In this document: positions 6,350-63,791 of the stretch, one piece after another
Layout of the letters: the number at the start of each line of letters is the position of its first letter
How positions within the stretch are numbered: position 1 is the first letter of the stretch
Source of the DNA: Cordylochernes scorpioides
Lineage: Eukaryota; Arthropoda; Arachnida; Pseudoscorpiones; Chernetidae
Direction: 5' to 3'
Length of the DNA stretch: 64,000 nt
NCBI GenBank assembly: GCA_030710605.1
Contig: CP092868.1
Location: 26,355,050 to 26,419,049, forward strand
Notes under the pieces: model-generated
The model's database searches: none
The model's input: only the letters and a program-made list of their open reading frames with translations
What the model was told of the DNA's origin: nothing
Translations under genes and position numbers: made by a program

Positions 6350-7239
6350 ATTATAAATTTTAGTTTGTTTGATTTTTCTACTCTAAAAAAATGGCTTGAT
6401 GTATATCTGTTAAATCAATGATCTTATAGTGTTCTCTGATAAACAGTCTTACTCAAGAGAGAAAAAGGAAAATAAGTAATAATAATACAATATATGCAAC
6501 TTTACAATATGTAAATATATATATCTCTCTTTTTCATAGAAATATGTTACATTAAAAACATTTAAAAAGAGAAATCAATAAAATTGAGATGGCAATTGGC
6601 CTCTAGATATGATCATTTCAGGTAGTTGACCGAACGCTTATCTATATAGATAATACCGTAACAGAGTTTTCCATTGTAAAGTCCTGAGCTATCTCCTCCG
6701 AAGATTCTGAACTACACATAACAATCTATATACCAAAATTTTCGTTATTTTTTTCTTCGTGTCATAGGCCTGTTTTTATTTTCCTAATGTTAACAGTTAT
6801 TTTTATTTTTTAATTTAATCTATTTTACAATCGTAGATTTTTGCATTTATCATCATCAATTCTTTTGTTTACAATTGCGTAACTTTTATAGAGAGAAATA
6901 AAGAAATACATAATTGATTAGATACAAAAGTGTGAACCAGAAAGTCGATTTTTAAAAATGTTATTATTTAATATAAACTTATTTTAATTTAATTTTGAAA
7001 TGAAAAGGTAGTGTAAAAGTGTATATGAGGTTAGATTCAAATAGGTTTAATTATGTTAGTTTAATCGCTAAATAAGGTTAGTTTTAGATAAGTTGAATTA
7101 GGTTAGTTTCAGATAATTAAAAAAAAATAATGTTCGTTTTTAGAAAAATAATTCGCAATAGTAAGTATATATATTAATATAAAAGATCGAAATGTAAAAA
7201 TCACTATGTCCAAAATCTTCGCTTTAACTCGTGTAAAAC
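6350..7239. other. AT-rich non-coding DNA
   Basis: Apart from a short run of GGTTAGTTT-like direct repeats near 7025-7125, I see nothing that I can support as a feature. Confidence 0.5.
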
Positions 7240-9998
7240 GGCTCGAAGGTACGGCGGTGTCAACGTACAGCGCCGCCTACCAAAGTTACCCTTTTCTGGG
7301 AACTCACCAGGTTATATTATTTTTCGAATTGTAGATTGAATTATTACTTTTATTCTATCTTTTATAAGTGTTTGTTATAGTTTTTCATTTGAATTTAGCA
7401 CAATTTTTGTATCTGGTTATCTTTTTTGGCATCTTTTTTTTCTCATTAATAAGACCTAATCCAAATAATTTAATAGTGTGTGACTTTTTTTTAAATTAAA
7501 TTATTTGGATTAGGTCTTATTTTCTTTTATTAATTTGTTATAGTTTTTCATTTGAATTTAGCTCCATTTTTGTGTCTGTCTTATTTTTTCTTCTCATAAA
7601 TAGGCTGATGCTGTATTTGTGTACTCAATTGTTGCTTTTTTTTTTATTAAATTATTTGGATTAGGTCTTATTTTCTTTTATTAATTTGTTATAGTTTTTC
7701 ATTTGAATTTAGCTCCATTTTTGTGTCTGTCTTTTTTTTTCATCTCATAAATAGGCTGATGCTGTATTTGTGTACTCAATTGTTGCTTTTTGTGTCTGGC
7801 TTCTTTTTTGCAGTATTTTTTTTTAATCCTTTTTTTTTTCATCAATTGTTTCCTCACATGCTTGGAATTTTCTTTTTATGCCTGTCCTGGCTTTCAGTTT
7901 TATAGATTTCCTCTGCTTGGTTCTTATTTTACCTTTTTTTTTTTGAGCGTCTTCTGTCATGCCTCGGAAAGGCCGTGGAAGACTCACTCCCCTGACCGCT
8001 AGGCTATTTCTCTTGTTTACTTTTTTACCAATGCCTATAATTTTTCACCTGAAAGATTTTTTTTAATTTGTTATTCAATAAACTATTATCACTTATTTTT
8101 GGTCTTCTTTTTATTTACTTATTTTACTGGGGGTTGGTGGAAGGATGGTCTAAGCCGTTGGTTCGGCTCGAAGGTACGGCGGTGTCAACGTACAGCGCCG
8201 CCTACCAAAGTTAACCTTTTCTGGGAACTCACCAGGTTATATTATTTTTCGAATTGTAGATTGAATTATTACTTTTATTCTATCTTTTATAAGTGTTTGT
8301 TATAGTTTTTCATTTGAATTTAGCACAATTTTTGTATCTTTTTTGGCATCTTTTTTTTCTCATTAATAAGACCTAATCCAAATAATTTAATAGTGTGTGA
8401 CTTTTTTTTAAATTAAATTATTTGGATTAGGTCTTATTTTCTTTTATTAATTTGTTATAGTTTTTCATTTGAATTTAGCTCCATTTTTGTGTCTGTCTTT
8501 TTTTTTCTTCTCATAAATAGGCTGATGCTGTATTTGTGTACTCAATTGTTGCTTTTTTTTTTATTAAATTATTTGGATTAGGTCTTATTTTCTTTTATTA
8601 ATTTGTTATAGTTTTTCATTTGAATTTAGCTCCATTTTTGTGTCTGTCTTTTTTTTTCATCTCATAAATAGGCTGATGCTGTATTTGTGTACTCAATTGT
8701 TGCTTTTTGTGTCTGGTTTCTTTTTTGCAGTATTTTTTTTGAATCCTTTTTTTTTTTCATCAATTGTTTCCTCACATGCTTGGAATTTTCTTTTTATGCC
8801 TGTCCTGGCTTTCAGTTTTATAGATTTCCTCTGCTTGGTTCTTATTTTACCTTTTTTTTTTTGAGCGTCTTCTGTCATGCCTCGGAAAGGCCGTGGAAGA
8901 CTCACTCCCCTGACCGCTAGGCTATTTCTCTTGTTTACTTTTTTACCAATGCCTATAATTTTTCACCTGAAAGATTTTTTTTTATTTGTTATTCAATAAA
9001 CTATTATCACTTATTTTTGGTCTTCTTTTTATTTACTTATTTTACTGGGGGTTGGTGGAAGGATGGTCTAAGCCGTTGGTTCGGCTCGAAGGTACGGCGG
9101 TGTCAACGTACAGCGCCGCCTACCAAAGTTAACCTTTTCTGGGAACTCACCAGGTTATATTATTTTTCGAATTGTAGATTGAATTATTACTTTTATTCTA
9201 TCTTTTATAAGTGTTTGTTATAGTTTTTCATTTGAATTTAGCACAATTTTTGTATCTGGTTATCTTTTTTGGCATCTTTTTTTTCTCATTAATAAGACCT
9301 AATCCAAATAATTTAATAGTGTGTGACTTTTTTTTAATTAAATTATTTGGATTAGGTCTTATTTTCTTTTATTAATTTGTTATAGTTTTTCATTTGAATT
9401 TAGCTCCATTTTTGTGTCTGTCTTTTTTTTTCTTCTCATAAATAGGCTGATGCTGTATTTGTGTACTCAATTGTTGCTTTTTTTTTATTAAATTATTTGG
9501 ATTAGGTCTTATTTTCTTTTATTAATTTGTTATAGTTTTTCATTTGAATTTAGCTCCATTTTTGTGTCTGTCTTTTTTTTTCATCTCATAAATAGGCTGA
9601 TGCTGTATTTGTGTACTCAATTGTTGCTTTTTGTGTCTGGTTTCTTTTTTGCAGTATTTTTTTTTAATCCTTTTTTTTTTCATCAATTGTTTCCTCACAT
9701 GCTTGGAATTTTCTTTTTATGCCTGTCCTGGCTTTCAGTTTTATAGATTTCCTCTGCTTGGTTCTTATTTTACCTTTTTTTTTTTTGAGCGTCTTCTGTC
9801 ATGCCTCGGAAAGGCCGTGGAAGACTCACTCCCCTGACCGCTAGGCTATTTCTCTTGTTTACTTTTTTACCAATGCCTATAATTTCTCACCTGAAAGATT
9901 TTTTTTTATTTGTTATTCAATAAACTATTATCACTTATTTTTGGTCTTCTTTTTATTTACTTATTTTACTGGGGGTTGGTGGAAGGATGGTCTAAGCC
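7240..9998. repeat. three-copy tandem repeat, unit about 920 bp
   Basis: The text GGCTCGAAGGTACGGCGG starts units at 7240, 8165 and 9083 (spacings 925 and 918 bp). Each unit contains two about 165-bp sub-repeats with AAATTATTTGGATTAGGTC, an inverted copy of that text, long T runs, and at its end the first half of a tRNA-derived SINE head (GGGGGTTGGTGGAAGGATGG...). In units 1 and 2 the head is cut at AAGCCGTTGGTT and joined to the next unit. In unit 3 it continues into a complete SINE. F-rich ORFs here come from the T runs. Confidence 0.92.
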
Positions 9999-10190
9999 GT
10001 TGGTTTTCGACCGCTACGACCCGGGTTCGATTCCCGCATTGGGCACTTTTTTCTGAAAAAATAAAAAAAAAAGCTCCAATGGCTTCTGATTCTTGCAAAA
10101 GTCCAACCCCACCAGCAAGCGCAAGTAATCAAACGGGGCTCTGGCACACTTGTACATGCAAAGTCGAACTGCTTTTCATACGTGTACCAT
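9971..10190 (+). mobile_element. tRNA-derived SINE, copy A
   Basis: The head (9971-10046) resembles a tRNA gene with a box B GGTTCGATTCC and ends GGGCAC followed by a T run. The body contains AAAGTCCAACCCCACC and GGGGCTCTGGCAC, which are shared with the reverse-orientation copies at 49.9-50.2 kb and 58.35-58.53 kb. It is truncated at about 10,190, where Helitron-related sequence begins. Mobilisation by a LINE is inferred from copy B, which has a poly-A tail. Confidence 0.85.
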
Positions 10191-12379: not shown

Positions 12380-12610
12380 TTCAACTCAAACGATCACAAA
12401 TCCTTCTACAGGACTATATGATTAGAAAAAAAAACCTCTTACTTAAACCTATAACAAAACCAACCCAATACAATAGTAGAGCGGTTTGGAGATTAATTTG
12501 ACGAAACCGCTGAGAGAGTTTACTACTGATGAACCAAGCATCTTCATTTAACAACTTTTTATCATTGCAGTAAGGTCTGTAGATATAATATTTGATGTAA
12601 TTATTTAAAA
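12380..12610 (-). mobile_element. hairpin short retroelement, copy 1, with 3' tail module
   Basis: Contains AGCGGTTTGG, GACGAAACCGCTGAGAG and CTACTGATGAACCAAG, the conserved parts of a dispersed family also seen at 20.5, 34.8, 35.2, 35.4 and 36.1 kb. Just to the left, CTTTATTTTACATTC and CTTCTACAGG match the tail module discussed in the findings. Confidence 0.65.
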
Positions 12611-12719
12611 GAAACATATTGCGAGTATATTTGTTACAAATTTTAACGATAGATGGCAATTAAAATTATAAATTTAATATCACTATAATAGATCATATAT
12701 CATCAACAACAACAACAAA

Positions 12720-20364: not shown

Positions 20365-20507
20365 GGATTGATCAGTATAAATACATCTTGAATTAATCCT
20401 TAATCCAACTAACCTAAAAGCTTATTTCCATAATTAGCTTAAATACCATTTCTGAGATTCCACCCTTCAGTGTAACATATAAAAGTAGAATGATCCAATA
20501 CAGTATT

Positions 20508-20655
20508 AGAGCTCTAAAGAAGCGGTCTGGTAGATTAAATTGGCAAAACCGCTGGGAGAGTTCAACACTGATGATCCAACCCCTACCAATATTTTTTCAT
20601 TGCAGTAAGGACAGTAGAAGTTTGATTTCTTTGTGAAAAGAAACATTCGCGTCTT
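20508..20655 (-). mobile_element. hairpin short retroelement, copy 2
   Basis: Contains GAGCTCTAAAGAAGCGGTC, ATTGGCAAAACCGCTGGGAG and CACTGATGATCC in the family order, followed by TTGCAGTAAGGACAGTAGAA. It is more diverged than the 34-36 kb copies. Confidence 0.7.
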
Positions 20656-23805: not shown

Positions 23806-24330
23806 ATGAACAAAACTTAAGTAAGTTGTACCTTTTAGCATGTATATCGTGATTCAGATAATAACTCTGAAAGATATTACAGGGACCTTTATTGAAGACA
23901 CACGAGATAACCAAGTGTGAACAAAACTTAAGGAAGTTGTACCTTTTAGCATGTATATCAGGATTCAGACAATAACTCTGAAAGATATTACAGGGACCTT
24001 TATTGAAGACACACGAGATAACCAAGTGTGAACAAAACTTAAGGAAGTTGTACCTTTTAGCATGTATATCGGGATTGAGACAATAATTCTGAAATATATT
24101 ACAGTGACCTTTATTGAAGACACACGAGATACACTCATGGACAAAACTTAAGGAAGTTGTACCTTTTAGCATGTATATCGGGATTCAGACAATAACTCTG
24201 AAAGATATTACAGTGACCTTTATTGAATACAGACTAGATAACCAAGTGTAAACAAAATTGCCTGTCTCCTTAAAAAATATATATATAGACTACCAGACTT
24301 TCCACTTCCTCAAGTTTTGTCCATTACTAT
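23806..24330 (-). mobile_element. Tc1/mariner-like non-autonomous element with internal 111-bp repeats
   Basis: The ends carry CTCATGAACAAAACTTAAG and, inverted, CAAGTTTTGTCCATTA, matching the ends of the element at 63.3-63.8 kb. Inside are four 111-bp units (23,825, 23,936, 24,047, 24,156) with GTTGTACCTTTTAGCATG. A 122-aa minus ORF here exists because 111 is a multiple of 3. There is no transposase. The superfamily call rests on the short TIR and possible TA target only. Confidence 0.65.
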
Positions 24331-33990: not shown

Positions 33991-34432
33991 GATTGTTTAT
34001 GTCCAGGAGTTTTAAACAAATTTATAATATTTAAGACAATGCTATTGTTTTAATTGAAAAAAAAGAAGGAAAATAGGCATGCTAACTAGTATCTATTTGG
34101 AATCCGAGCTCTAACACCACATATATACATATATTGAACAAGCTAATAAGAGGATTTGAAAGAGGAATGTCTGAGATAACAGGAAGCATGTTAGAGTAAT
34201 CCTACGAGCTAAAGAAGAGGCCAAGAACAGATAAGAGAAACGATGCTATCCGTGGAGGGAGGAGCTCGTCCAAGTAGACTGAGCTGCCCCTGGGGGGATC
34301 AGATAAGACATGACGACAATTAGAGAGACGGAAGATGGTATTGTGTTGTTGTGAAGTAGGTCACAAGGGTAGCGCCGCCTGCCGGCTGGTTCGGTACCTT
34401 GGTCCGGTACTGAGCTCTACGGGGCATCCTTG

Positions 34433-34782
34433 TAGAGGGGAGTGCTAACTGTATATGTGTTGGGTCCGAAGACCATTCCATCCTTGTCGAGGGGAGTGCT
34501 AACTGTATATGTCTTGGGTCCGAAGACCATTCCATCCTTGTCAAGGGGAGTGCTAACTGTATATGTGTTGGTCCGAAGACCATTCCATTCTTGTAGAGGG
34601 GAGTGATAACTATATATGTGTTGGTCCGAAGACCATTCCATCCTTGTCAAGGGGAGTGCTAACTGTATATGTGTTGGGTCCGAAGACCATTCCCTCCTTG
34701 TCAAGGGGAGTGCTAACTGTATATGTGTTGGGTCCGAAGACCATTCTATCCTTGTCAAGGGGAGTGCTAACTGTATATGTTT
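34433..34782. repeat. minisatellite, 54-bp unit, about 6.4 copies
   Basis: AACTGTATATGTGTTGGGTC and CGAAGACCATTCCATCC recur every 53-54 bp. Since 54 is a multiple of 3, minus-strand ORFs (87 and 113 aa) stay open, but they are not genes. The last unit runs directly into a hairpin retroelement copy. Confidence 0.92.
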
Positions 34783-34935
34783 CTTTTATACATAATACAA
34801 ACTTCTACAGCCCTTACTGCGATGAAAAAATATATTGGGAGGACTCTTGGCTCATCAGTGGTGAACCCTCCCAGCGGTTTCGCCAATTTAGTCTATCAGA
34901 CCGCTTCTCAGAGCTCTAATATTTATTGGACGTAA
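34783..34935 (+). mobile_element. hairpin short retroelement, copy 3
   Basis: Order: CTTCTACAGCCCTTACTGCG, a first hairpin GGGAGG...CCTCCC around GGCTCATCAGTGGTGAA, then a second hairpin AGCGGT...ACCGCT around TTCGCCAATTTAG. It is the fullest copy in the window. No protein is encoded. Confidence 0.75.
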
Positions 34936-35199
34936 CAATTATTCCGCCTTCTACATGCTATCAGAATATTTATTGGACGATTCTGCTTATATACGCAGCA
35001 CTGAAGGATGGAATCTCAGAAATGGTTTTTCAAGAAAACTATGGACATAAGGTTATAGGACAGTAGAATTACAATCAAATATTTGTTTCGAGCAATGCTC
35101 TTCAGCAAACTATAAAGACAAGGCCAGTTAGGCATAAATTAACACAAAGCAATAACGCGCCATCTATACATATAAAATGGAAGGATTTAAAAGCACGAA

Positions 35200-35525
35200 T
35201 GTTTCTTTTATACATAATACAAACTTCTACTGCCCTTACTGCGATGAAAAAATATATTGGGGGGGCTTGGCTCATCAGTGGTGAACCCTCCCAGCGGTTT
35301 CGCCAATATAATTAGGCTGTACCACTGCGACCAAAAATATATGTTCAGAAATTTAATTACCAACTATGTATAATATCTAACAAACATTTTTAGCAATGTG
35401 TTTCTTTTTTATCTTTACAGACCTTACTACAATGATTGAAGTTATTGAATGAGAGGTCTTGGCTCATCAGTAGTGAACCCTCTCAGCGGTTTCACCAAAT
35501 TAGATATGTTCGAAAGATGGAAACT
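35200..35525 (+). mobile_element. hairpin short retroelement, copies 4 and 5
   Basis: Copy 4 (about 35,202-35,320) shares TTTCTTTTATACATAATAC with copy 3 at its start. Copy 5 (about 35,400-35,505) has GAGAGG...CCTCTC in place of GGGAGG...CCTCCC, a paired change that keeps the first hairpin. Confidence 0.7.
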
Positions 35526-36079
35526 GTTAGTTATATTAATTCAGAGAATTTTTCTCTATGTAAATAAATAATATAGATATATGAATAAATATAAATTGAT
35601 TATGATAACATTAGCTAGCATATGTTGATTAACAATTGGCAACTGTGTTAGTGCCTTCTTGATTCTTGTTTTTGTATTTTCTTCTTAATTCTTAAATTTT
35701 TTACTTTTGTAGTTTCGATGCATAAAGATAACATTAAAAATATATTTAAGTAACATTTTCTCTTTTTTACCCCAAAAACACCAACAAAAACCTCTGAAAT
35801 GTAAGCAATAATAAAAAAAGGGTTCCGAGTATAAGTTTTTTACTTTATTTATATATTATCTCAATCTTTCGAGTATTATAAACCCTTCTACATGTTTTTA
35901 TTATAAATTAGATATGTTTTAGCAGAAGACAATCAATACATGAGAGAAAGAAATTGTTGTTGTTGTTGGGTTCTATGCTGCCTGGAATATAGGAGCTTCA
36001 TCTATGCTACTTTCTTGTGGTGAATCTATATAAGACCGATGGACTTAATAAAGCTGTATGTGTGTGTGTGAAAAGAAAT

Positions 36080-36385
36080 AATAGCAGAATATTGTCTTCA
36101 ACGGGGCTCTGGCACTTTTGTATGGGGAGGGCTGGCTCATCAGTGGTGAACCCTCCCAGCGGTTTCGCCAGTTTAATCTACCATATTTATTGCATCACAA
36201 TATTATTTATATATCTAGATATCTAAATTTATTTACCATTTATCGATAAAATAAAAACAGTTTGTAAGTGCAAAGTCGAACTGCTTTTCACATGTGTAGA
36301 CATGTGATGCACTTACAGTAAAATCAGTCGCCTACTTCTACCCACCATGATTTTCATGGCCTGTACCACGTGTACTAAAGATAAG
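36080..36385 (+). mobile_element. SINE copy D, split by a nested insertion
   Basis: The SINE body runs ACGGGGCTCTGGCAC, is interrupted at about 36,122, and resumes TTTGTAAGTGCAAAGTCGAA at 36,261, continuing to GGCCTGTACCACGTGTAC. The tRNA head is absent. The interruption is the hairpin element annotated next. Confidence 0.8.
36123..36260 (+). mobile_element. hairpin retroelement copy 6, inserted in a SINE
   Basis: 138 bp flanked by TTTGTA at 36,117-36,122 and 36,261-36,266. It begins within the first hairpin (TGGGGAGGGCTGGCTC), so it is 5' truncated, and ends AAAATAAAAACAG, an A-rich tail. Target duplication, 5' truncation and A-rich 3' end point to LINE-type insertion. Confidence 0.75.
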
Positions 36386-37340: not shown

Positions 37341-40300
37341 AAACTAGTGTTGTTTAACTTCGGTGATCGGACAAGAAACGGTGTTTTTCAAGGTGGTATG
37401 GCCGTAGGTAAAATTAGTGTTGTTTAACTTCGGTGATCGGACAAGAAACGATGTTTTTCAACGTGGTATGGCCGTAGGTATAACTAGTGTTGTTTAACTT
37501 CGGTGATCGGACAAGAACCGGTGTTTTTCAACATGGTATGGCCATAGGTAAAACTAGTGTTGTTTAACTTCGGTGATCGGACAAGAAACGATGTTTTTCA
37601 ACGTGGTATGGCCGTAGGTATAACTAGTGTTGTTTAACTTCGGTGATCGGACAAGAACCGGTGTTTTTCAACATGGTATGGCCGTAGGTAAAACTAGTGT
37701 TGTTTAACTTCGGTGATCGGACAAGAAACGGTGTTTTCCAACATGGTATGGCCATAGGTAAAACTAGTGTTGTTTAACTTCGGTGATCGGACAAGAACCG
37801 GTGTTTTTCAACATGGTATGGCCGTAGGTAAAACTAGTGTTGTTTAACTTCGGTGATCGGACAAGAAACGGTGTTTTCCAACATGGTATGGCCATAGGTA
37901 AAACTAGTGTTGTTTAACTTCGGTGATCGGACAAGAACCGGTGTTTTTCAACATGGTATGGCCGTAGGTAAAACTAGTGTTGTTTAACTTCGGTGATCGG
38001 ACAAGAACCGGTGTTTTTCAACATGGTATGGCCGTAGGTAAAACTAGTGTTGTTTAACTTCGGTGATCGGACAAGAACCGGTGTTTTTCAACATGGTATG
38101 GCCGTAGGTAAAACTAGTGTTGTTTAACTTCGGTGATCGGACAAGAACCGGTGTTTTTCAACATGGTATGGCCGTAGGTAAAACTAGTGTTGTTTAACTT
38201 CGGTGATCGGACAAGAACCGGTGTTTTTCAACATGGTATGGCCGTAGGTAAAACTAGTGTTGTTTAACTTCGGTGATCGGACAAGAACCGGTGTTTTTCA
38301 ACATGGTATGGCCGTAGGTAAAACTAGTGTTGTTTAACTTCGGTGATCGGACAAGAACCGGTGTTTTTCAACATGGTATGGCCGTAGGTAAAACTAGTGT
38401 TGTTTAACTTCGGTGATCGGACAAGAACCGGTGTTTTTCAACATGGTATGGCCGTAGGTAAAACTAGTGTTGTTTAACTTCGGTGATCGGACAAGAACCG
38501 GTGTTTTTCAACATGGTATGGCCGTAGGTAAAACTAGTGTTGTTTAACTTCGGTGATCGGACAAGAACCGGTGTTTTTCAACATGGTATGGCCATAGGTA
38601 AAATTAGTGTTGTTTAACTTCGGTGATCGGACAAGAACCGGTGTTTTTCAACATGGTATGGCCGTAGGTAAAACTAGTGTTGTTTAACTTCGATGATCGG
38701 ACAAGAACCGGTGTTTTACAACATGGTATGGCCGTAGGTATAACTAGTGTTGTTTAACTTCGGTGATCGGACAAGAACCGGTGTTTTTCAACATGGTATG
38801 GCCGTAGGTAAAACTAGTGTTGTTTAACTTCGGTGATCGGACAAGAACCGGTGTTTTTCAACATGGTATGGCCGTAGGTAAAACTAGTGTTGTTTAACTT
38901 CGGTGATCGGACAAGAACCGGTGTTTTTCAACATGGTATGGCCGTAGATAAAACTAGTGTTGTTTAACTTCGGTGATCGGACAAGAACCGGTGTTTTTCA
39001 ACATGGTATGGCCGTAGATAAAACTAGTGTTGTTTAACTTCGGTGATCGGACAAGAACCGGTGTTTTACAACATGGTATGGCCGTAGGTAAAACTAGTGT
39101 TGTTTAACTTCGGTGATCGGACAAGAACCGGTGTTTTTCAACATGGTATGGCCGTAGGTAAAACTAGTGTTGTTTAACTTCGGTGATCGGACAAGAACCG
39201 GTGTTTTTCAACATGGTATGGCCGTAGGTAAAACTAGTGTTGTTTAACTTCGGTGATCGGACAAGAACCGGTGTTTTTCAACATGGTATGGCCGTAGGTA
39301 AAACTAGTGTTGTTTAACTTCGGTGATCGGACAAGAACCGGTGTTTTTCAACATGGTATGGCCGTAGTTAAAACTAGTGTTGTTTAACTTCGGTGATCGG
39401 ACAAGAACCGGTGTTTTTCAACGTGGTATGGCCGTAGGTAAAACTAGTGTTGTTTAACTTCGGTGATCGGACAAGAACCGGTGTTTTTCAACGTGGTATG
39501 GCCGTAAGTAAAACTAGTGTTGTTTAACTTCGGTGATCGGACAAGAACCGGTGTTTTTCAACATGGTATGGCCGTAGGTAAAACTAGTGTTGTTTAACTT
39601 CGGTGATCGGACAAGAACCGGTGTTTTTCAACATGGTATGGCCGTAGGTAAAACTAGTGTTGTTTAACTTCGGTGATCGGACAAGAACCGGTGTTTTTCA
39701 ACATGGTATGGCCATAGGTAAAACTAGTGTTGTTTAACTTCGGTGATCGGACAAGAACCGGTGTTTTTCAACGTGGTATGGCCGTAGGTAAAACTAGTGT
39801 TGTTTAACTTCGGTGATCGGACAAGAACCGGTGTTTTTCAACGTGGTATGGCCGTAAGTAAAACTAGTGTTGTTTAACTTCGGTGATCGGACAAGAACCG
39901 GTGTTTTTCAACATGGTATGGCCATAGGTAAAACTAGTGTTGTTTAACTTCGGTGATCGGACAAGAACCGGTGTTTTTCAACGTGGTATGGCCGTAAGTA
40001 AAACTAGTGTTGTTTAACTTCGGTGATCGGACAAGAACCGGTGTTTTTCAACATGGTATGGCCATAGGTAAAACTAGTGTTGTTTAACTTCGGTGATCGG
40101 ACAAGAACCGGTGTTTTTCAACATGGTATGGCCGTAGGTAAAACTAGTGTTGTTTAACTTCGGTGATCGGACAAGAACCGGTGTTTTTCAACATGGTATG
40201 GCCATAGGTAAAACTAGTGTTGTTTAACTTCGGTGATCGGACAAGAACCGGTGTTTTTCAACATGGTATGGCCGTAGGTAAAACTAGTGTTGTTTAACTT

Positions 40301-41205
40301 CGGTGATCGGACAAGAACCGGTGTTTTTCAACATGGTATGGCCATAGGTAAAACTAGTGTTGTTTAACTTCGGTGATCGGACAAGAACCGGTGTTTTTCA
40401 ACATGGTATGGCCGTAGGTAAAACTAGTGTTGTTTAACTTCGGTGATCGGACAAGAACCGGTGTTTTTCAACGTGGTATGGCCGTAGGTAAAACTAGTGT
40501 TGTTTAACTTCGGTGATCGGACAAGAACCGGTGTTTTTCAACATGGTATGGCCGTAGGTAAAACTAGTGTTGTTTAACTTCGGTGATCGGACAAGAACCG
40601 GTGTTTTTCAACGTGGTATGGCCGTAGGTAAAACTAGTGTTGTTTAACTTCGGTGATCGGACAAGAACCGGTGTTTTTCAACGTGGTATGGCCGTAAGTA
40701 AAACTAGTGTTGTTTAACTTCGGTGATCGGACAAGAACCGGTGTTTTTCAACATGGTATGGCCGTAGGTATAACTAGTGTTGTTTAACTTCGGTGATCGG
40801 ACAAGAACCGGTGTTTTTCAACATGGTATGGCCGTAGATAAAACTAGTGTTGTTTAACTTCGGTGATCGGACAAGAACCGGTGTTTTTCAACATGGTATG
40901 GCCGTAGGTAAAACTAGTGTTGTTTAACTTCGGTGATCGGACAAGAAACGGTGTTTTTCAACATGGTATGACCGTAGGTAAAACTAGTGTTGTTTAACTT
41001 CGATGATCGGACAAGAACCGGTGTTTTACAACATGGTATGGCCGTAGGTAAAACTAGTGTTGTTTAACTTCGGTGATCGGACAAGAACCGGTGTTTTACA
41101 ACATGGTATGGCCGTAGGTAAAACTAGTGTTGTTTAACTTCGGTGATCGGACAAGAACCGGTGTTTTACAACATGGTATGGCCGTAGGTAAAACTAGCGT
41201 TGTTG
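37341..41205 (-). repeat. 5S rRNA-derived satellite, 70-bp unit, about 55 copies
   Basis: Read on the minus strand, each unit is TACCTACGGCCATACCATG, then TTGAAAAACACCGGTTCTTG, then TCCGATCACCGAAGTTAAAC and AACACTAGTTT. This matches the first about 55 nt of animal 5S rRNA, ending inside box A; the intermediate element and box C are absent. Each unit ends in TTTT. Differences from 5S are mostly CpG to CpA/TpG changes (GTTCTCG to GTTCTTG, CACG to CATG), and some units keep CACG. Most units differ by 0-3 bases, which points to recent amplification or homogenisation. Confidence 0.93.
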
Positions 41206-50320: not shown

Positions 50321-50820
50321 TGTCAACAACAAACTCAGCGCCACATAACGTCAACAGAATTAAGTTTTAAAAATATTTTGTTATATTCAATGGGGAGAAA
50401 AAAAATTTGCTATAATTATATTATGGACACAATTTTTTTTGTAAAATATGGGTGTGAATATTTTGAAAATTAACAATAACGCCTATTTTATATTTATTTG
50501 TACTATGTGTAAAAGATTTTTCGTATAAAAAATAAAATAAAAGGTGATTACTGTAAGAAGATAAAGATGAAGTCTTAAGAAGAAGAGATGAATTATGGAA
50601 GTTGTTTCAAATCCAGGAAGTATACATGAGAACAAGTTGGAAACGTGGATTAAATTATCTTCAGCTTCAATCATGATCGCAGTTCATTAATTATGTTAAT
50701 GAAAGAAATGTTACACAACCTCACTCAATTAACATCCAAGTGTTAAATTAAAGGATGGATTTGTTATAAATAGATACTGTATAGGTATTATTTGGACTTC
50801 GTTATCTTTATTTTAACACC

Positions 50821-50892
50821 TATATGGAACGCTTCACGATTTTGCGTGTACTCCTTGCGCAGGGGTCATGCTAATCTTCTCTGTATCGTTCC
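50821..50892 (-). pseudogene. U6 snRNA pseudogene, 5' truncated
   Basis: On the minus strand the text runs GGAACGATACAGAGAAGATT, AGCATGACCCCTGCGCAAGG, AGTACACGCAAAATCGTG, AAGCGTTCCATATA. It matches U6 from about nt 24 to the 3' end with a few changes. It has the ACAGAGA box, the AGC triad and the 3' stem, but the 5' stem-loop is missing and is replaced by tandem copies of the core. It is not expected to function. Confidence 0.92.
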
Positions 50893-51950
50893 TATTGTTA
50901 CACAGGGACCATGCTAATCTTCTCTGTATCGTTCCTATTGTATCACAGGGACCATGCTAATCTTCTCTGTATCGTTCCTATCGTATCACAGGGACCATGC
51001 TAATCTTCTCTGTATCGTTCCTATTGTATCACAGGGACCATGCTAATCTTCTCTGTATCGTTCCTGTTGTATCACAGGGACCATGATAATCTTCTCTGTA
51101 TCGTTCCTGTTGTATTACAGGGACCATGATAATCTTCTCTGTATCGTTCCTATTGTATCACAGGGACCATGCTAATCTTCTCTGTATCGTTCCTGTTGTA
51201 TCACAGGGACCATGATAATCTTCTCTGTATCGTTCCTATTGTATCACAGGGACCATGCTAATCTTCTCTGTATCGTTCCTATTGTATCACAGGGACCATG
51301 CTAATCTTCTCTGTATCGTTCCTATTGTATCACAGGGACCATGCTAATCTTCTCTGTATCGTTCCTATTGTATCACAGGGACCGTGCTAATCTTCTCTGT
51401 ATCGTTCCTATTGTATCACAGGGACCATGCTAATCTTCTCTGTATCGTTCCTATTGTATCACAGGGACCATGCTAATCTTCTCTGTATCGTTCCTATTGT
51501 ATCACAGGGACCATGCTATTCTTCTCTGTATCGTTCTATTGTATCCCAGGGACCATGCTAATCTTCTCTGTATCGTTCCTATTGTTACACAGGGACCATG
51601 CTACTCTTCTCTGTATCGTTCCTATTGTATCACAGGGACCATGCTAATCTTCTCTGTATCGTTCCTATTGTATCACAGGGACCATGCTAATCTTCTCTGT
51701 ATCGTTCCTATTGTATCACAGGGACCATGCTAATCTTCTCTGTATCGTTCCTATTGTATCACAGGGACCATGCTAATCTTCTCTGTATCGTTTTATTGTA
51801 TCCCAGGGACCATGCTAATCTTCTCTGTATCGTTCCTATTGTATCACAGGGACCATGCTAATCTTCTCTGTATCGTTCCTATTGTATCAAAGGGACCATG
51901 CTAATCTTCTCTGTATCGTTCCTATTGTATCACAGGGACCATGCTAATAT
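50860..51950 (-). repeat. U6 snRNA-derived satellite, 43-bp unit, about 25 copies
   Basis: On the minus strand each unit is TGATACAATAGGAACGATAC, AGAGAAGATTAGCATGGTCC and CTG. It holds about 32 nt of U6 including ACAGAGA and AGC, plus an 11-nt TGATACAATAG linker. Copies are nearly identical; a few have GATTATCATGG or GAATAGCATGG. The array abuts the U6 pseudogene, which is therefore its likely source. A plus-strand ORF of 87 aa inside is a by-product. Confidence 0.95.
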
Positions 51951-52421
51951 TTTCTACGCTTATGATTCTTTTTGAATTAAAACAATTTATACTGTCCTTA
52001 CTTCAATGATAAAATAATGGGATGGCGCTAATGCATCATATTGCCACGTGGAAAATTAGGGAAGACCAACTTCAGGAGGAGACAACAATTTATTTCAGGC
52101 AAGAACAAACTATAAATGGTAAACAAAAGATAAGCAAAGAGGGAAGTTTACAGAGTAGCAAAGTATAAACATCAAAAAATAATACTCTGTTAATAAAATA
52201 ATACATACTTTGCGACAATATTAATAACTTGAATGATGTACAATACGTGCTACACCTGGCGAAAATCTTAATTTTAAAATTTGTACGATGATGAATTTCA
52301 AAAATGTTAGATTTATAAGATTGGTTTCTACACGAAAAAGATTTGAATAAATGTGTAAAGAGAAAATGTACTTTGATATTAAAATTAAGATATAATCGTT
52401 GAGCGAAGGAAGCTATTATAG

Positions 52422-56400: not shown

Positions 56401-56808
56401 CGTAGAATTACATTTATAGACAGTAGAAGTTTGATTTATTTGTGAAAAGAAACATTCTATTCTTAATGATTTCATTATATATATAAATTGTTTGAAATTT
56501 ATATGTTAAGTTTGTAATTATTCTTATTTTTTAATTCATAGAAGCATTTTTCTGGCAGACATATTCAATTTTTTATCATCATCATTTTTAATTATTATTG
56601 TTTTTTTCTTTGTTAGTTATCAAATCATATGCAATTGTAGTTTCTTTTTTGTTTGTTGTGTACCTTTTTAAGCAATAAAATATATATAGAAGTAAGGTGT
56701 AATATTCAATTCAAGCATATGGAACCAACATCGATTCATTTTTAAAACAAAGCAAAATCTTAAGTTTATACAACTTTCACTTTTTCATACATATATGAAT
56801 CTATTAGA
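56400..56808. other. AT-rich non-coding DNA
   Basis: The start (GACAGTAGAAGTTTGATTTA, TGTGAAAAGAAACATTC) matches the downstream part of hairpin element copy 2 at 20.6 kb. The rest shows nothing. Confidence 0.4.
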
Positions 56809-57275: not shown

Positions 57276-57825
57276 ACGCCGCATAGTATGAATCTATGTA
57301 AAACCAGAAGATATGCAAATATATTCACAAGTATAAGTACAGAGAGGTGATTTGAAAACGTTAATTTATTGATAATCACATTACGTTATCTTCCATTCCT
57401 TTTTCTAATTTCGATCCATAATTACGTTAAAAGATTCTCTCTTTTTTATTAGTATTTTAGAGAGTCAGGGCACGCCCACATTTTCTCTGATTGCCTCTTT
57501 TCTCCCCACGAATGACGTTAGAATTCTTCCTTTTCCCATAGGATTCCTATGATCTTTAAAAACCTCTACATAGATGGTCTCTGAAGAAGGAGAAAGCTCT
57601 AAATTCTCAAACATTTGTGATTTTTAATCTATCGTATTTATACGATAAAAAACATGGCGAAGGAAGACGAGTTTCTTTTATTGGTGCATTAGAGTAAGCT
57701 TTCGGGCAAAAGACCTTCGTCAGGCAAGATAAAAACGACACTATCTTATTGTAACATTGAAGTGAATTAATAAAAATCAATAAAACATATACAAGTATTT
57801 GAAAATAGAGCAATCCATAGATCAA

Positions 57826-58196
57826 TCCACTGTTCCGACTTTCTGGCAACCTCCAACATCTTCCATTCAATCCACTGTTCCGACTTTCTGGCAGTTCCCA
57901 ACATCTTCCATTCAATCCACTGTTCCAACTTTCTGGCAGCCTCCAACATCTTCCATTCAATCCACTGTTCCGACTTTCTGGCAGCCTCCAACATCTTCCA
58001 TTCAATCCACTGTTCCAACTTTCTGGCAGCCTCCAACATCTTCCATTCAATCCACTGTTCCGACTTTCTGGCAGCCTCCAACATCTTCCATTCAATCCAC
58101 TGTTCCAACTTTCTGGCAGCCTCCAACATCTTCCATTCAATCCACTGTTCCAACTTTCTGGCAGCCTCCAACATCTTCCATTCAATCCCCTGTTCC
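57826..58196 (-). repeat. 45-bp minisatellite, inverted block, 8 copies
   Basis: Units CAATCCACTGTTCCGACTTT, CTGGCAGCCTCCAACATCTT and CCATT, every 45 bp. This is the reverse complement of the large array that starts at 58,543. Confidence 0.95.
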
Positions 58197-58204
58197 GACA
58201 ATCT

Positions 58205-58527: not shown

Positions 58528-58542
58528 TTCTTTCTTTTAAAG

Positions 58543-61500
58543 ATTGAATGGAAGATGTTGGAGACTGCCAGAAAGTTGGAACAGTGGATTGAATGGAAGA
58601 TGTTGGAACTGCCAGAAAGTCGGAACAGTGGATTGAATGGAAGATGTTGGAGACTGTCAGAAAGTCGGAACAGTGGATTGAATGGAAGATGTTGGAGACT
58701 GCCAGAAAGTCGGTACAGTGGATTGAATGGAAGATGTTGGAGACTGCCAGAAAGTCGGAACAGTGGATTGAATAGAAGATGTTGGAGACTGCCAGAAAGT
58801 TGGAACAGTGGATTGAATGAAAGATGTTGGAGACTGCCAGAAAGTCGGAACAGTGGATTGAATGGAAGATGTTGGAGACTGCCAGAAAGTCGTAACAGTG
58901 GATTGAATGGAAGATGTTGGAGACTGCCAGAAAGTCGGAACAGTGGATTGAATGGAAGATGTTGGAGACTGCCAGAAAGAAGTCGGAACAGTGGATTGAA
59001 TGGAATATGTTGGAGACTGCCAGAAAGTCGGAACAGTGGATTGAATGGAAGATGTTGGAGACTGCCAGAAAGAAGTCGGAACAGTGGATTGAATGGAATA
59101 TGTTGGAGACTGCCAGAAAGTCGGAACAGTGGATTGAATGGAAGATGTTGGAACTGCCAGAAAGTCGGAACAGTGGATTGAATGGAAGATGTTGGAGACT
59201 GCCAGAAAGTCGGAACAGTAGATTGAATGGAAGATGTTGGAGACTGCCAGAAATTCGGAACAGTAGATTGAATGGAAGATGTTGGAGCCTGCCAGAAAGT
59301 CGGAACAGTAGATTGAATGGAAGATGTTGGAGACTGCCAGAAAGTTGGAACAGTGGATTGAATGGAAGATGTTGGAGACTGCCAGAAAGTCGGAACAGTG
59401 GATTGAATGGAAGATGTTGGAGACTGCCAGAAAGTCGGAACAGTGGATTGAATGGAAGATGCTGGAGCCTTCCAGAAAGAAGTCGGAACAGTGGATTGAA
59501 TGGAAGATGTTGGAGTCTTCCAGAAAGAAGTCGGAACAGTGGATTGAATGGAAGATGTTGGAGTCTTCCAGAAAGAAGTCGGAACAGTGGATTGAATGGA
59601 AGATGTTGGAGACTGCCAGAAAGTCGGAACAGTGGATTGAATGGAAGATGTTGGAGCCTTCCAGAAAGAAGTCGGAACAGTGGATTGAATGGAAGATGTT
59701 GGAGACTGCCAGAAAGAAGTCGGAACAGTGGATTGAATGAAAGATGTTGGAGACTGCCAGAAAGAAGTCGGAACAGTGGATTGAATGGAAGATGTTGGAG
59801 CCTGCCAGAAAGTCGGAACAGTGGATTGAATGGAAGATGTTGGAGACTGCCAGAAAGAAGTCGGAACAGTGGATTGAATGGAAGATGTTGGAGCCTGCCA
59901 GAAAGTCGGAACAGTGGATTGAGTGGAAGATGTTGGAGACTGCCAGAAAGTCGGAAGAGTGGATTGAATGGAAGATGTTGGAGGCTGCCAGAAATTCTGA
60001 AGAGTGGATTGAATGGAAGATGTTGGAGGCTGCCAGAAAGTCGGAACAGTGGATTGAATGGAATATGTTGGAGACTGCCAGAAAGAAGTCGGAACAGTGG
60101 ATTGAATGGAAGATGTTGGAGACTGCCAGAAAGTCGGAACAGTGGATTGAATGGAAGATGTTGGAGACTGCCAGAAAGTCGGAACAGTGGATTGAATGGA
60201 AGATGTTGGAAACTGCCAGAAAGAAGTCGGAACAGTGGATTGAATGGAAGATGTTGGAGACTGCCAGAAAGTCGGAACAGTGGATTGAATGGAAGATGTT
60301 GGAAACTGCCAGAAAGTCGGAACAGTGGATTGAATGGAAGATGTTGGAGACTGCCAGAAAGTCAGAACAGTGGATTGAATAGAAGATGTTGGAGACTGCC
60401 AGAAAGTCAGAACAGTGGATTGAATGGAAGATGTTGGAGACTGCCAGAAAGTCGGAACAGTGGATTGAATGGAAGATGTTGGAGACTGCCAGAAAGAAGT
60501 CGGAACAGTGGATTGAATGGAAGATGTTGGAGACTGCCAGAAAGTCGAAACAGTGGATTGAATGGAAGATGTTAGAGACTGCCAGAAAGTCAGAACAGTG
60601 GATTGAATGGAAGATGTTGGAGTTTGCCAGAAAGTCGGAACAGTGGATTGAATGGAAGATGTTGGAGACTGCCAGAAAGTCGGAACAGTGGATTGAATGG
60701 AAGATGTTGGAGACTGCCAGAAAGTCGGAACAGTGGATTGAATGGAAGATGTTGGAGACTGCCAGAAAGTCGGAACAGTGGATTGAATGGAAGATGTTGG
60801 AGACTGCCAGAAAGTCAGAACAGTGGATTGAATGGAAGATGTTGGAGACTGCCAGAAAGTCAGAACAGTGGATTGAATGGAAGATGTTGGAGACTGCCAG
60901 AAAGAAGTCGGAACAGTGGATTGAATGGAAGATGTTGGAGGCTGCCAGAAAGTCAGAACAGTGGATTGAATGGAAGATGTTGGAGACTGCCAGAAAGTCG
61001 GAACAGTGGATTGAATGGAAGATGTTGGAGACTGCCAGAAAGAAGTCGGAACAGTGGATTGAATGGAATATGTTGGAGACTGCCAGAAAGTCGGAACAGT
61101 GGATTGAATGGAAGATGTTGGAGACTGCCAGAAAGAAGTCGGAACAGTGGATTGAATGGAATATGTTGGAGACTGCCAGAAAGTCGGAACAGTGGATTGA
61201 ATGGAAGATGTTGGAGACTGCCAGAAAGAAGTCAGAACAGTGGATTGAATGGAAGATGTTGGAGACTGCCAGAAAGTCGGAACAGTGGATTGAATGGAAG
61301 ATGTTGGAGACTGCCAGAAAGTCGAAACAGTGGATTGAATGGAAGATGTTGGAGACTGCCAGAAAGTTGGAACAGTGGATTGAATGGAAGATGTTGGAGA
61401 CTGCCAGAAAGTCGGAACAGTGGATTGAATGGAAGATGTTGGAGCCTGCCAGAAAGTTGGAACAGGGGATTGAATGGAAGATGTTGGAGACTGCCAGAAA

Positions 61501-62433
61501 GAAGTCGGAACAGTGGATTGAATGGAAGATGTTGGAGCCTGCCAGAAAGTTGGAACAGTGGATTGAATGGAAGATGTTGGAGACTGCCAGAAAGAAGTCG
61601 GAACAGTGGATTGAATGGAAGATGTTGGAGACTGCCAGAAAGTTGGAACAGTGGATTGAATGGAAGATGTTGGAGACTGCCAGAAAGTTGGAACAGTGGA
61701 TTGAATGGAAGATGTTGAAGACTGCCAGAAAGTCGGAACAGAGGATTGAATGGAAGATGTTGGAGACTGCCAGAAAGTTGGAACAGTGGATTGAATGGAA
61801 GATGTTGGAGACTGCCAGAAAGAAGTCGGAACAGTGGATTGAATGGAAGATGTTGAAGACTGCCAGAAAGTCGGAACAGGGGATTGAATGGAAGATGTTG
61901 GAGACTGCCAGAAAGTTGGAACAGTGGATTGAATGGAAGATGTTGAAGACTGCCAGAAAGTCGGAACAGGGGATTGAATGGAAGATGTTGGAGACTGCCA
62001 GAAAGAAGTCGGAACAGTGGATTGAATGGAAGATGTTGGAGACTGCCAGAAAAGGGGAACAGTGGATTGAATGGAAGATGTTAGAGACTGCCAGAAAGTC
62101 GGAACAGTGGATTGAATGGAAGATGTTGGAGACTGTCAGAAAGTCGGAACAGTAGATTGAATGGAAGATGTTGGAGACTGCCAGAAAGTTGGAACAATGG
62201 ATTGAATGGAAGATGTTGGAGACTGCCAGAAAGTCGGAAAAGTGGATTGAATGGAAGATGTTGGAGACTGCCAGAAAGTCAGAACAGTGGATTGAATGGA
62301 AGATGTTGGAGGCTGCCAGAAAGTTGGAACAGTGGATTGAATGGAAGATGTTGGAGACTGCCAGAAAGTTGGAACAGTGGATTGAATGGAAAATGTTGGA
62401 GACTGCCAGAAAGAAGTCGGAACAGTGGATTAG
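58543..62433 (+). repeat. 45-bp minisatellite, main block, about 85 copies
   Basis: The unit is GATTGAATGGAAGATGTTGG, AGACTGCCAGAAAGTCGGAA and CAGTG (45 bp). A frequent 48-bp variant carries an extra AAG (GAAAGAAGTCGG). Two plus frames stay open for up to 589 codons (MLETARKSEQWIEWK or GRCWRLPESRNSGLN per unit). The frames are interrupted by single-base deletions and point-mutation stops, so coding is not supported. 45- and 48-bp units are intermixed in partly regular runs. Confidence 0.95.
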
Positions 62434-63332: not shown

Positions 63333-63791
63333 TATACTCATGGACAAAACTTAAGAAAGTGGAATGTTTTTGATATCGCTCGTCGTCTGCTTTATAAAAA
63401 AAAAGCTTTTATTTAACTTGCCTTCATGTCTGTCTGTCCGTCTGTCTGTTTGTCTGCCTACAAATTTTGTAATCAATTTTCAGTATACTTCTAGGAGCAC
63501 GTAGAAATCTCAAATTTTGTACACTTTTTTTTTTTCTAAGGAGACAGAGACAATTTTGTTCACACTTGGTTATCTCGTGTTTCTTCAATAAAGGTCACTG
63601 TAATATCTTTCAGAGTTATTGTCTGAATCCCGATATACATGCTAAAAGGTATAACTTCCTTAAGTTTTGTTCACACTTGGTTATCTCGTGTGTCTTCAAT
63701 AAAGATCACTGTAATGTATTTCAGAGTTATTATCTGAATCCCGATATATATGTTAAAAGGTACAACTTCCTTAAGTTTTGTCTATGAGTGT
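63333..63791 (+). mobile_element. Tc1/mariner-like non-autonomous element, second member
   Basis: The ends are TATACTCATGGACAAAACTT and, inverted, TACACTCATAGACAAAACTT. The interior has two of the same 111-bp-type units (CACACTTGGTTATCTCGTG, CAGAGTTATTGTCTGAATC) as the element at 23.8-24.3 kb. It also has a CTGTCTGTCCGTCTGTCTG simple repeat. There is no transposase. Confidence 0.75.

Follow-up and report, generated by a model that had tools for sequence, protein, structure and literature searches.

A tandem U6 array in a pseudoscorpion genome as a probable decayed member of a retroposon family built from oligomeric snRNA

SINEs with snRNA-derived heads are said to have been described by Kojima in 2015. 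According to the available text of one study, LINE template switching in humans catches U6 and U6atac most often among the snRNAs (PMC4476161), and the U6/LINE-1 chimeras treated in the accessible part of another paper usually carry one full-length U6 (PMC13174262). The main text of the former, as far as it is accessible, does not contain the word "tandem". The dimeric Alu element, in the sections available of its description, is a fused pair of 7SL-derived monomers (PMC7245038), and animal retrozymes are tandem repeats which, in the available text of the work on them, are thought to have spread via small-RNA retrotransposition (PMC7229834). Satellites derived from 5S rDNA are cited in the accessible portion of a recent satellite review, in which a word search for snRNA gave no result (PMC12692304). 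Titles and the opening lines of abstracts, in a literature from which subscription journals are mostly absent, yielded no paper dealing with retroposons that contain several U6 or U6atac cores.

The window, that is the whole stretch of 64,000 nucleotides of Cordylochernes scorpioides DNA analysed here (C6:26355050-26419049), contains a tandem array of U6 cores which is probably a decayed member of a retroposon family built from oligomeric U6 snRNA and mobilised in trans by a LINE-type enzyme. TRF reports the array at 50860-51955 with a period of 43, 25.5 copies and a 96% match, and 25 exact ACAGAGAAGA boxes stand 42-43 nt apart within it, as the initial annotation had it with about 25 units of 43 bp. 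TRF, Rfam and the box spacing together define a U6 core array of 25 units of 42-43 nt at 50869..51955, whose sense strand is the minus strand; among the 24 whole units 22 measure 43 nt and two measure 42 nt. As in a satellite, one unit is repeated in tandem, according to both TRF and the unit spacing. The derivation of the units from the U6 catalytic core is borne out by an Rfam U6 match of 74.7 bits (E 4e-17) on the minus strand at 50818-50920, covering the last unit and the 3' part, and by four more U6 matches across the array; the consensus thus has the expected U6 match. Each 42-43-nt unit comprises the end of the U6 5' domain, the ACAGAGA box, the AGC triad and the 5' side of the internal stem-loop. 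Every unit had been said to hold both box and triad, which is correct for the box (25 of 25 exact) but not for the triad, which reads ATC in 3 of the 24 whole units.

The two ends of the array differ in their state of preservation. On its 3' side, the U6 copy with a 3' half that had been seen to adjoin the array is present, its 3' part being intact on the minus strand from 50868 to 50822 and ending in ..GTTCCATAT, with no T-run terminator immediately past it. The further claim that a local satellite had grown from this neighbouring copy as its source pseudogene does not stand: one multi-core U6 copy was inserted, and the 3' half forms its end. A weak candidate for a 3' target-site duplication (TSD), TATAGGTGTTAAAA, lies at 50811..50824 on the minus strand, and the duplicate locus described below has TATAGGTGTCTTAAAA ahead of its U6 5' end. 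On the 5' side the array is joined, where the U6 5' end has been lost, to E7 (51956..52043, minus strand), a degenerate copy of a dispersed element termed E. The 5' stem-loop reported as lacking is indeed absent from the window copy, but it is kept by the duplicate copy and by a family of 66-nt units elsewhere in the genome.

The 66-nt units also explain the segment of the 43-nt unit that had been taken for an 11-nt linker foreign to U6. Against the Rfam U6 consensus 41 of the 43 nt align without gaps along U6, and when the ten letters beyond the core were compared with U6, 396 of 2000 shuffles scored equally well, so that the linker is not assignable to U6 from the window alone. In the corresponding shuffle tests a contiguous segment is favoured for the U6atac unit (41 of 2000 shuffles equal) and not for the 5S unit (207 of 2000) of two other arrays in the window. 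The 66-nt unit found at other loci holds the 5' stem-loop of U6 and the core, with CCTGTGATAC(CA/TT)GTTCGG-like letters joining them, and on reading these relatives the loss of 23 nt from it yields the window unit, linker included. What looked like a non-U6 linker is therefore the U6-derived join of the 66-nt unit, and a foreign origin is rejected since the units at other loci account for its letters. The exact 43-bp junction occurs 29 times genome-wide and is confined to the window array and its duplicate.

That duplicate came from a search of the genome (2.62 Gb in 24 contigs), in which the best 40 of 1,423 candidates were scored; among these 40, U6 copies lie on many contigs and a second U6 array lies 102.6 kb from the window array. 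It opens with the U6 5' end, GTACACGCTTGTTCGGCGGTAC, and its end matches that of the window array. Over 1180 bp the two arrays align collinearly with 95.5% identity and, ends aside, the gaps between them measure 1 to 4 bp, which indicates that no whole unit has been gained or lost since duplication. Because a second collinear copy exists outside the window, an assembly error at a single locus is unlikely to be behind the window array. On both sides the duplicate array has TATAGGTGT-like letters, which fall below the 99% threshold of the TSD control. The duplication takes in the region more widely: some 103-116 kb upstream, within the same contig, the U6, U6atac and 5S arrays each have a counterpart.

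Tandem repetition in the window extends beyond U6, with 21 arrays taken from the TRF table making up about 27% of its length. At 37341..41204 on the minus strand TRF and Rfam identify a 70-bp array derived from 5S rRNA in 55 copies, which is probably a local expansion because its only tandem relative, among the best 40 of 901 candidates, is in the segmental duplicate (C6:26277996-26280373), with shorter 5S matches present elsewhere. A general class of ncRNA arrays was considered and rejected, the 5S array having no tandem relative beyond the segmental duplicate among those same 40. Arrays of one 45-bp unit lie in opposite orientation at 57822-58199 (8 copies) and 58542-62431 (85 copies) and are open in several frames; one 111-bp tandem repeat recurs in opposite orientation at 23807-24257 and 63554-63781; and 7239-10005 holds three tandem copies of about 920 bp that are 98-99% alike. 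Exact-pattern scans of viral contigs and of genome contigs, plus phage blastn, gave no match.

Elsewhere in the genome the U6 relatives follow a recurrent layout of a U6 5' end, n copies of the 66-nt unit and one U6 3' part. The ten multimer loci that were read all contain cores and a single U6 3' part followed by other DNA, and seven of them have the U6 5' end, which is degenerate in L017, not reached in L060 and not recognisable in L062 (L059-L062 were also fetched at shorter length, as L010, L012, L015 and L018). Complete members stop at the mature U6 3' end with no poly(A) tail. The family thus runs, like a retrocopy, from the snRNA 5' end to the mature 3' end, an extent kept by the duplicate array and reduced in the window copy by loss of the 5' end. 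By reading, the sequence past ..CCATAT varies between loci, and the LINE-shared 3' tail or poly(A) expected of a SINE is absent. In place of the single RNA copy of a retrocopy there are 2 to 60+ cores, with junction chains giving 2 in L017, at least 38 in L059 and more than 60 in L060; these counts are lower bounds, as altered junctions are missed, and L059, where 37 junctions were found, has a length that fits about 46 units. A derived junction and substitutions, with small variants, are common to the 66-nt units of all eight loci compared, which were retrieved by similarity to the window, a procedure that favours shared letters. The exact 66-nt junction occurs 8,250 times genome-wide (reversed control 0), and nine clusters listed for the first 7 Mb of contig C1 extrapolate to a rough total of some 3,300 U6 loci. 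Units diverge by 5.6% within loci against 9.7% between loci, and 50 of 60 U6 units have their nearest match solely in their own locus.

Flanking repeats at several of these loci are those expected of retroposition. Measured against the 99th percentile of 240 mismatched-flank pairs, 5 of the 8 U6 multimers tested reach or exceed the control, as do 5 of 8 single or 5'-truncated U6 copies. Eight of the ten loci in each set were used: L060 (5' end not reached) and L062 (no clear U6 start) were left out of the multimers, and L025 (a copy of L024) and L026 (unclear start) out of the single copies; the U6 start letters were picked by eye. The largest multimer to pass is L059, where a 3,141-bp insert with at least 38 cores has flanks matching at 17 of 18 bases, and at L061 a 1,885-bp insert is flanked by repeats matching at 19 of 19. 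L011 (9) and L014 (10) pass the threshold yet lie within the U6 control range, which reaches 10, and three of the eight multimers, including the duplicate of the window array, fall below it. Target-site duplications are therefore found for the U6 family, with the pair formed by the window array and its duplicate as a weak candidate only. The 5'-truncated copy L022, scored with the single copies, has a 15-bp TSD with one mismatch, and because the copy starts inside a preceding unit its RNA would have been oligomeric.

A parallel family is built from U6atac. The window holds a member of it at 34425..34780 (minus strand, TRF), an array of 54-bp units, each being one U6atac segment between two ACGGTTA repeats. 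The one U6atac gene read, from a cluster on C1 that holds 26 of the 46 scored U6atac matches, is 122 nt long to the fifth terminal T and has ACGGTTA at nt 20 and nt 74, a distance of 54 nt that equals the array period. Among the matches listed (best 40 of 500 scored) U6atac multimers lie on 13 contigs; by reading, both U6atac ends are kept in at least L063, L064, L065, L075 and L077, and the 3' side is cut short in L072 and L074. Within the arrays (window and 16 loci) 393 of 413 internal junctions read CAGTTAG and 20 read CGGTTAG, 17 of the latter in L076. Where the pattern matched, 4 of 6 loci retain the gene-type CGG at the first site and 6 of 10 retain it at the last, where the other 4 have CAG. 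The CAG junction has 1,583 exact occurrences against 0 for the control, and extrapolation from the matches listed for the first 110 Mb of C1 gives a rough total of about 300 U6atac loci. With their U6 and U6atac junctions the two families thus show the high copy number and shared diagnostic changes that mark a SINE. The TSD test took in all 16 of the U6atac loci fetched at length, and 6 reach or exceed the 99% control with 10 below it; the matches abut the insert in L072, L074 and L077, do not do so in L063 and L073, and are A-rich in L075. In L065 a diverged U6 copy directly follows the U6atac multimer with its 3' end.

How would such arrays arise? Shared derived junctions at dispersed loci, several of them TSD-flanked, imply that the inserted RNA already comprised at least two cores, unless the junctions were spread by conversion, and they tell against independent growth at each locus because such growth would give the gene's own junction. 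Oligomeric U6 or U6atac RNA would be taken in trans by a putative LINE-type reverse transcriptase, which would slip back between repeated units during copying and thereby give every insertion a core number of its own, with near-identical cores. In the case of the window array, the template unit would already have lacked 23 nt of the 5' stem-loop, segmental duplication would have produced the second copy of the array, and the window copy would later have lost its 5' end beside element E. A bolder form of this proposal, that the reverse transcriptase of this lineage habitually concatemerises U6 and U6atac RNA at insertion by repeated slip-back between short repeats, giving arrays of tens of cores in one step and not by slow unequal exchange, is offered tentatively as a real possibility. 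Its main rival, which appears unlikely, is that dimeric U6 or U6atac RNA was retrocopied and inserted with two or a few cores, each array subsequently growing in place like a minisatellite, through unequal crossing-over or replication slippage. Such growth would suit the span of core numbers from 2 to >60, the two variants in the window array that recur 6 units apart, and the finding that neighbouring units are more alike than chance in four of the 11 arrays tested for order, namely L061 (P 0.002), L077 (P 0.000), L062 (P 0.032) and L071 (P 0.034). However, order is weak in L059 (P 0.05) and absent from L060 (P 0.78), the seven arrays beyond L059, L060, L061 and L077 ranging from P 0.03 to 0.56, and the duplicated arrays have gone through about 4.5% divergence without a whole-unit change. 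At L059, moreover, the units diverge from their consensus by 3.3% and the two TSD copies have one mismatch in 18 bases, values that do not require the units to postdate the insertion; so short a TSD can tell no more. The neighbour similarity makes some growth after insertion likely, and the order and locus data fit bulk formation at insertion plus some later local duplication, with growth soon after insertion also compatible. In L061 and L077, which rank with the more uniform arrays, units differ from the consensus by 1.9% and 1.5% on average and the flanking repeats match, for which reason these two are perhaps recent insertions. Somewhat less likely again than growth in place is a long multimeric U6 or U6atac gene whose long transcripts were retroposed, the source gene then setting the core number. 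Such a gene would explain why derived junctions are shared, and the C1 cluster of U6atac matches could be the birthplace of an internally duplicated gene; against it, units are most like those of their own locus, and no promoter-bearing multimeric U6 source gene was found among nine TATATAAG-linked starts, of which six were fetched and five were fully readable, all five being monomers, with one gene of the U6atac cluster read. The likelihoods given to these two rivals overlap with that of the retroposon family itself because all three start from oligomeric RNA and part ways only over the origin of the core number.

Readings in which the arrays owe their form to gene function have also to be weighed, and these centre on promoters and on element E. 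A common upstream block (TTTCGTTAA.TACCCATTTG) together with TATATAAG precedes the canonical U6 genes L092 and L093 as well as the U6atac gene L079, and further TATA-linked starts of U6, on C20 and C8, are preceded by different sequence. Element E has two conserved blocks, GAAACCGCTGGGAGGGTTCACCACTGATGAGCCAA and CATTGCAGTAAGGNCWGTAG, amid more diverged surroundings, and eight matches at an E value of 0.0002 or better lie in the window; a sequence search places copies at 12480-12619, 20494-20650, 35196-35312, 35349-35502, 36121-36183 and 56419-56476, and a further copy, E3, on the 5' side of the U6atac array (34777..34930, minus strand). If E were an snRNA promoter, the U6 and U6atac arrays would be degenerate genes, and E3 and E7, each correctly oriented and with a TATA-like stretch, do lie just 5' of arrays, 3 of the 8 copies being within 25 bp of an array, a number reached or exceeded in 11 of 20,000 simulations. 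The idea is nevertheless rejected as extremely improbable, contradicted by the other upstream sequences, with TATATAAG, of the U6 and U6atac genes read; by eye, neither their block nor TATATAAG is seen in E beside the window arrays. E is moreover common, with 22 matches (two being one place), about 1 per 7 kb, in 147,540 bases from loci that were retrieved because of their snRNA copies. It is thus a common dispersed element that sometimes serves as a landing place, to judge by a U6atac copy inside an E copy in L087 and a U6 3' end abutting E letters in L012 (both by reading). A conserved block of E contains CTGATGA and GAAAC, which we take to be the letters of a hammerhead core. As a known ribozyme E was rejected, a permissive scan of 34770-36250 giving none and a lone match, well under its cut-off, to CrcZ (16.3 of 95 bits); its RNAalifold consensus has 12 pairs, with both-sided change in 0 of 12. 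A functional RNA gene, or a decoy presenting many ACAGAGA boxes, is likewise a very improbable reading of the window array. Consistent with a decoy, AACGATACAGAGAAGA is unchanged in 24 of 24 whole units, the longest invariant run being 16 nt (P 0.04), and on the minus strand no TTTT begins anywhere from 51982 down to 50542. But the triad is mutated in three units, the element upstream is by eye devoid of the upstream block of the genes read, and the P of 0.04 disregards linked changes; selection on the ACAGAGA box was rejected with that P alone in its favour. No functional role is indicated for this copy.

If arrays are formed at insertion, as the retroposon reading would have it, tandem arrays could arise ready-made through RNA, and here they would do so in two parallel families, U6 and U6atac, within one genome. 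The question of how satellites start becomes directly testable via the core number at insertion, across loci and across individuals. Tandem 5'-splice-site-binding boxes lie at many loci, and any that are transcribed could titrate spliceosome parts.

Like SINEs with snRNA-derived heads, the multimers described here would be retroposons made from snRNA, and unlike them they show no LINE-derived body or tail, their end being the mature snRNA end. With 5S rDNA-derived satellites, as covered by the available part of the review (PMC12692304), the common feature is a tandem piece of ncRNA, which matches the 5S array of the window, whereas the arrays of U6 and U6atac are insertions at dispersed places, several of them flanked by TSDs. 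Animal retrozymes, on the available text (PMC7229834), likewise combine tandem repeats with a proposed RNA-mediated spread, and differ in the hammerhead expected of them: none was present among 40 Rfam matches in the window (E up to 0.1), nor in 20 U6 loci at gathering scores. The dimeric Alu, in the accessible description (PMC7245038), is similarly a retroposon lineage founded by fused RNA-derived monomers, from which the present families differ in being derived from snRNAs with external gene promoters, in allowing more than two units and in having no A-rich linker. The LINE-mobilised U6 and U6atac processed pseudogenes of Doucet et al. 2015 (PMC4476161, available text) are similar in that snRNA ends are kept, TSDs are present, copies are dispersed and U6 and U6atac are favoured; what sets the present families apart is that 2 to 60+ cores, linked by shared derived junctions, lie between one 5' and one 3' end.
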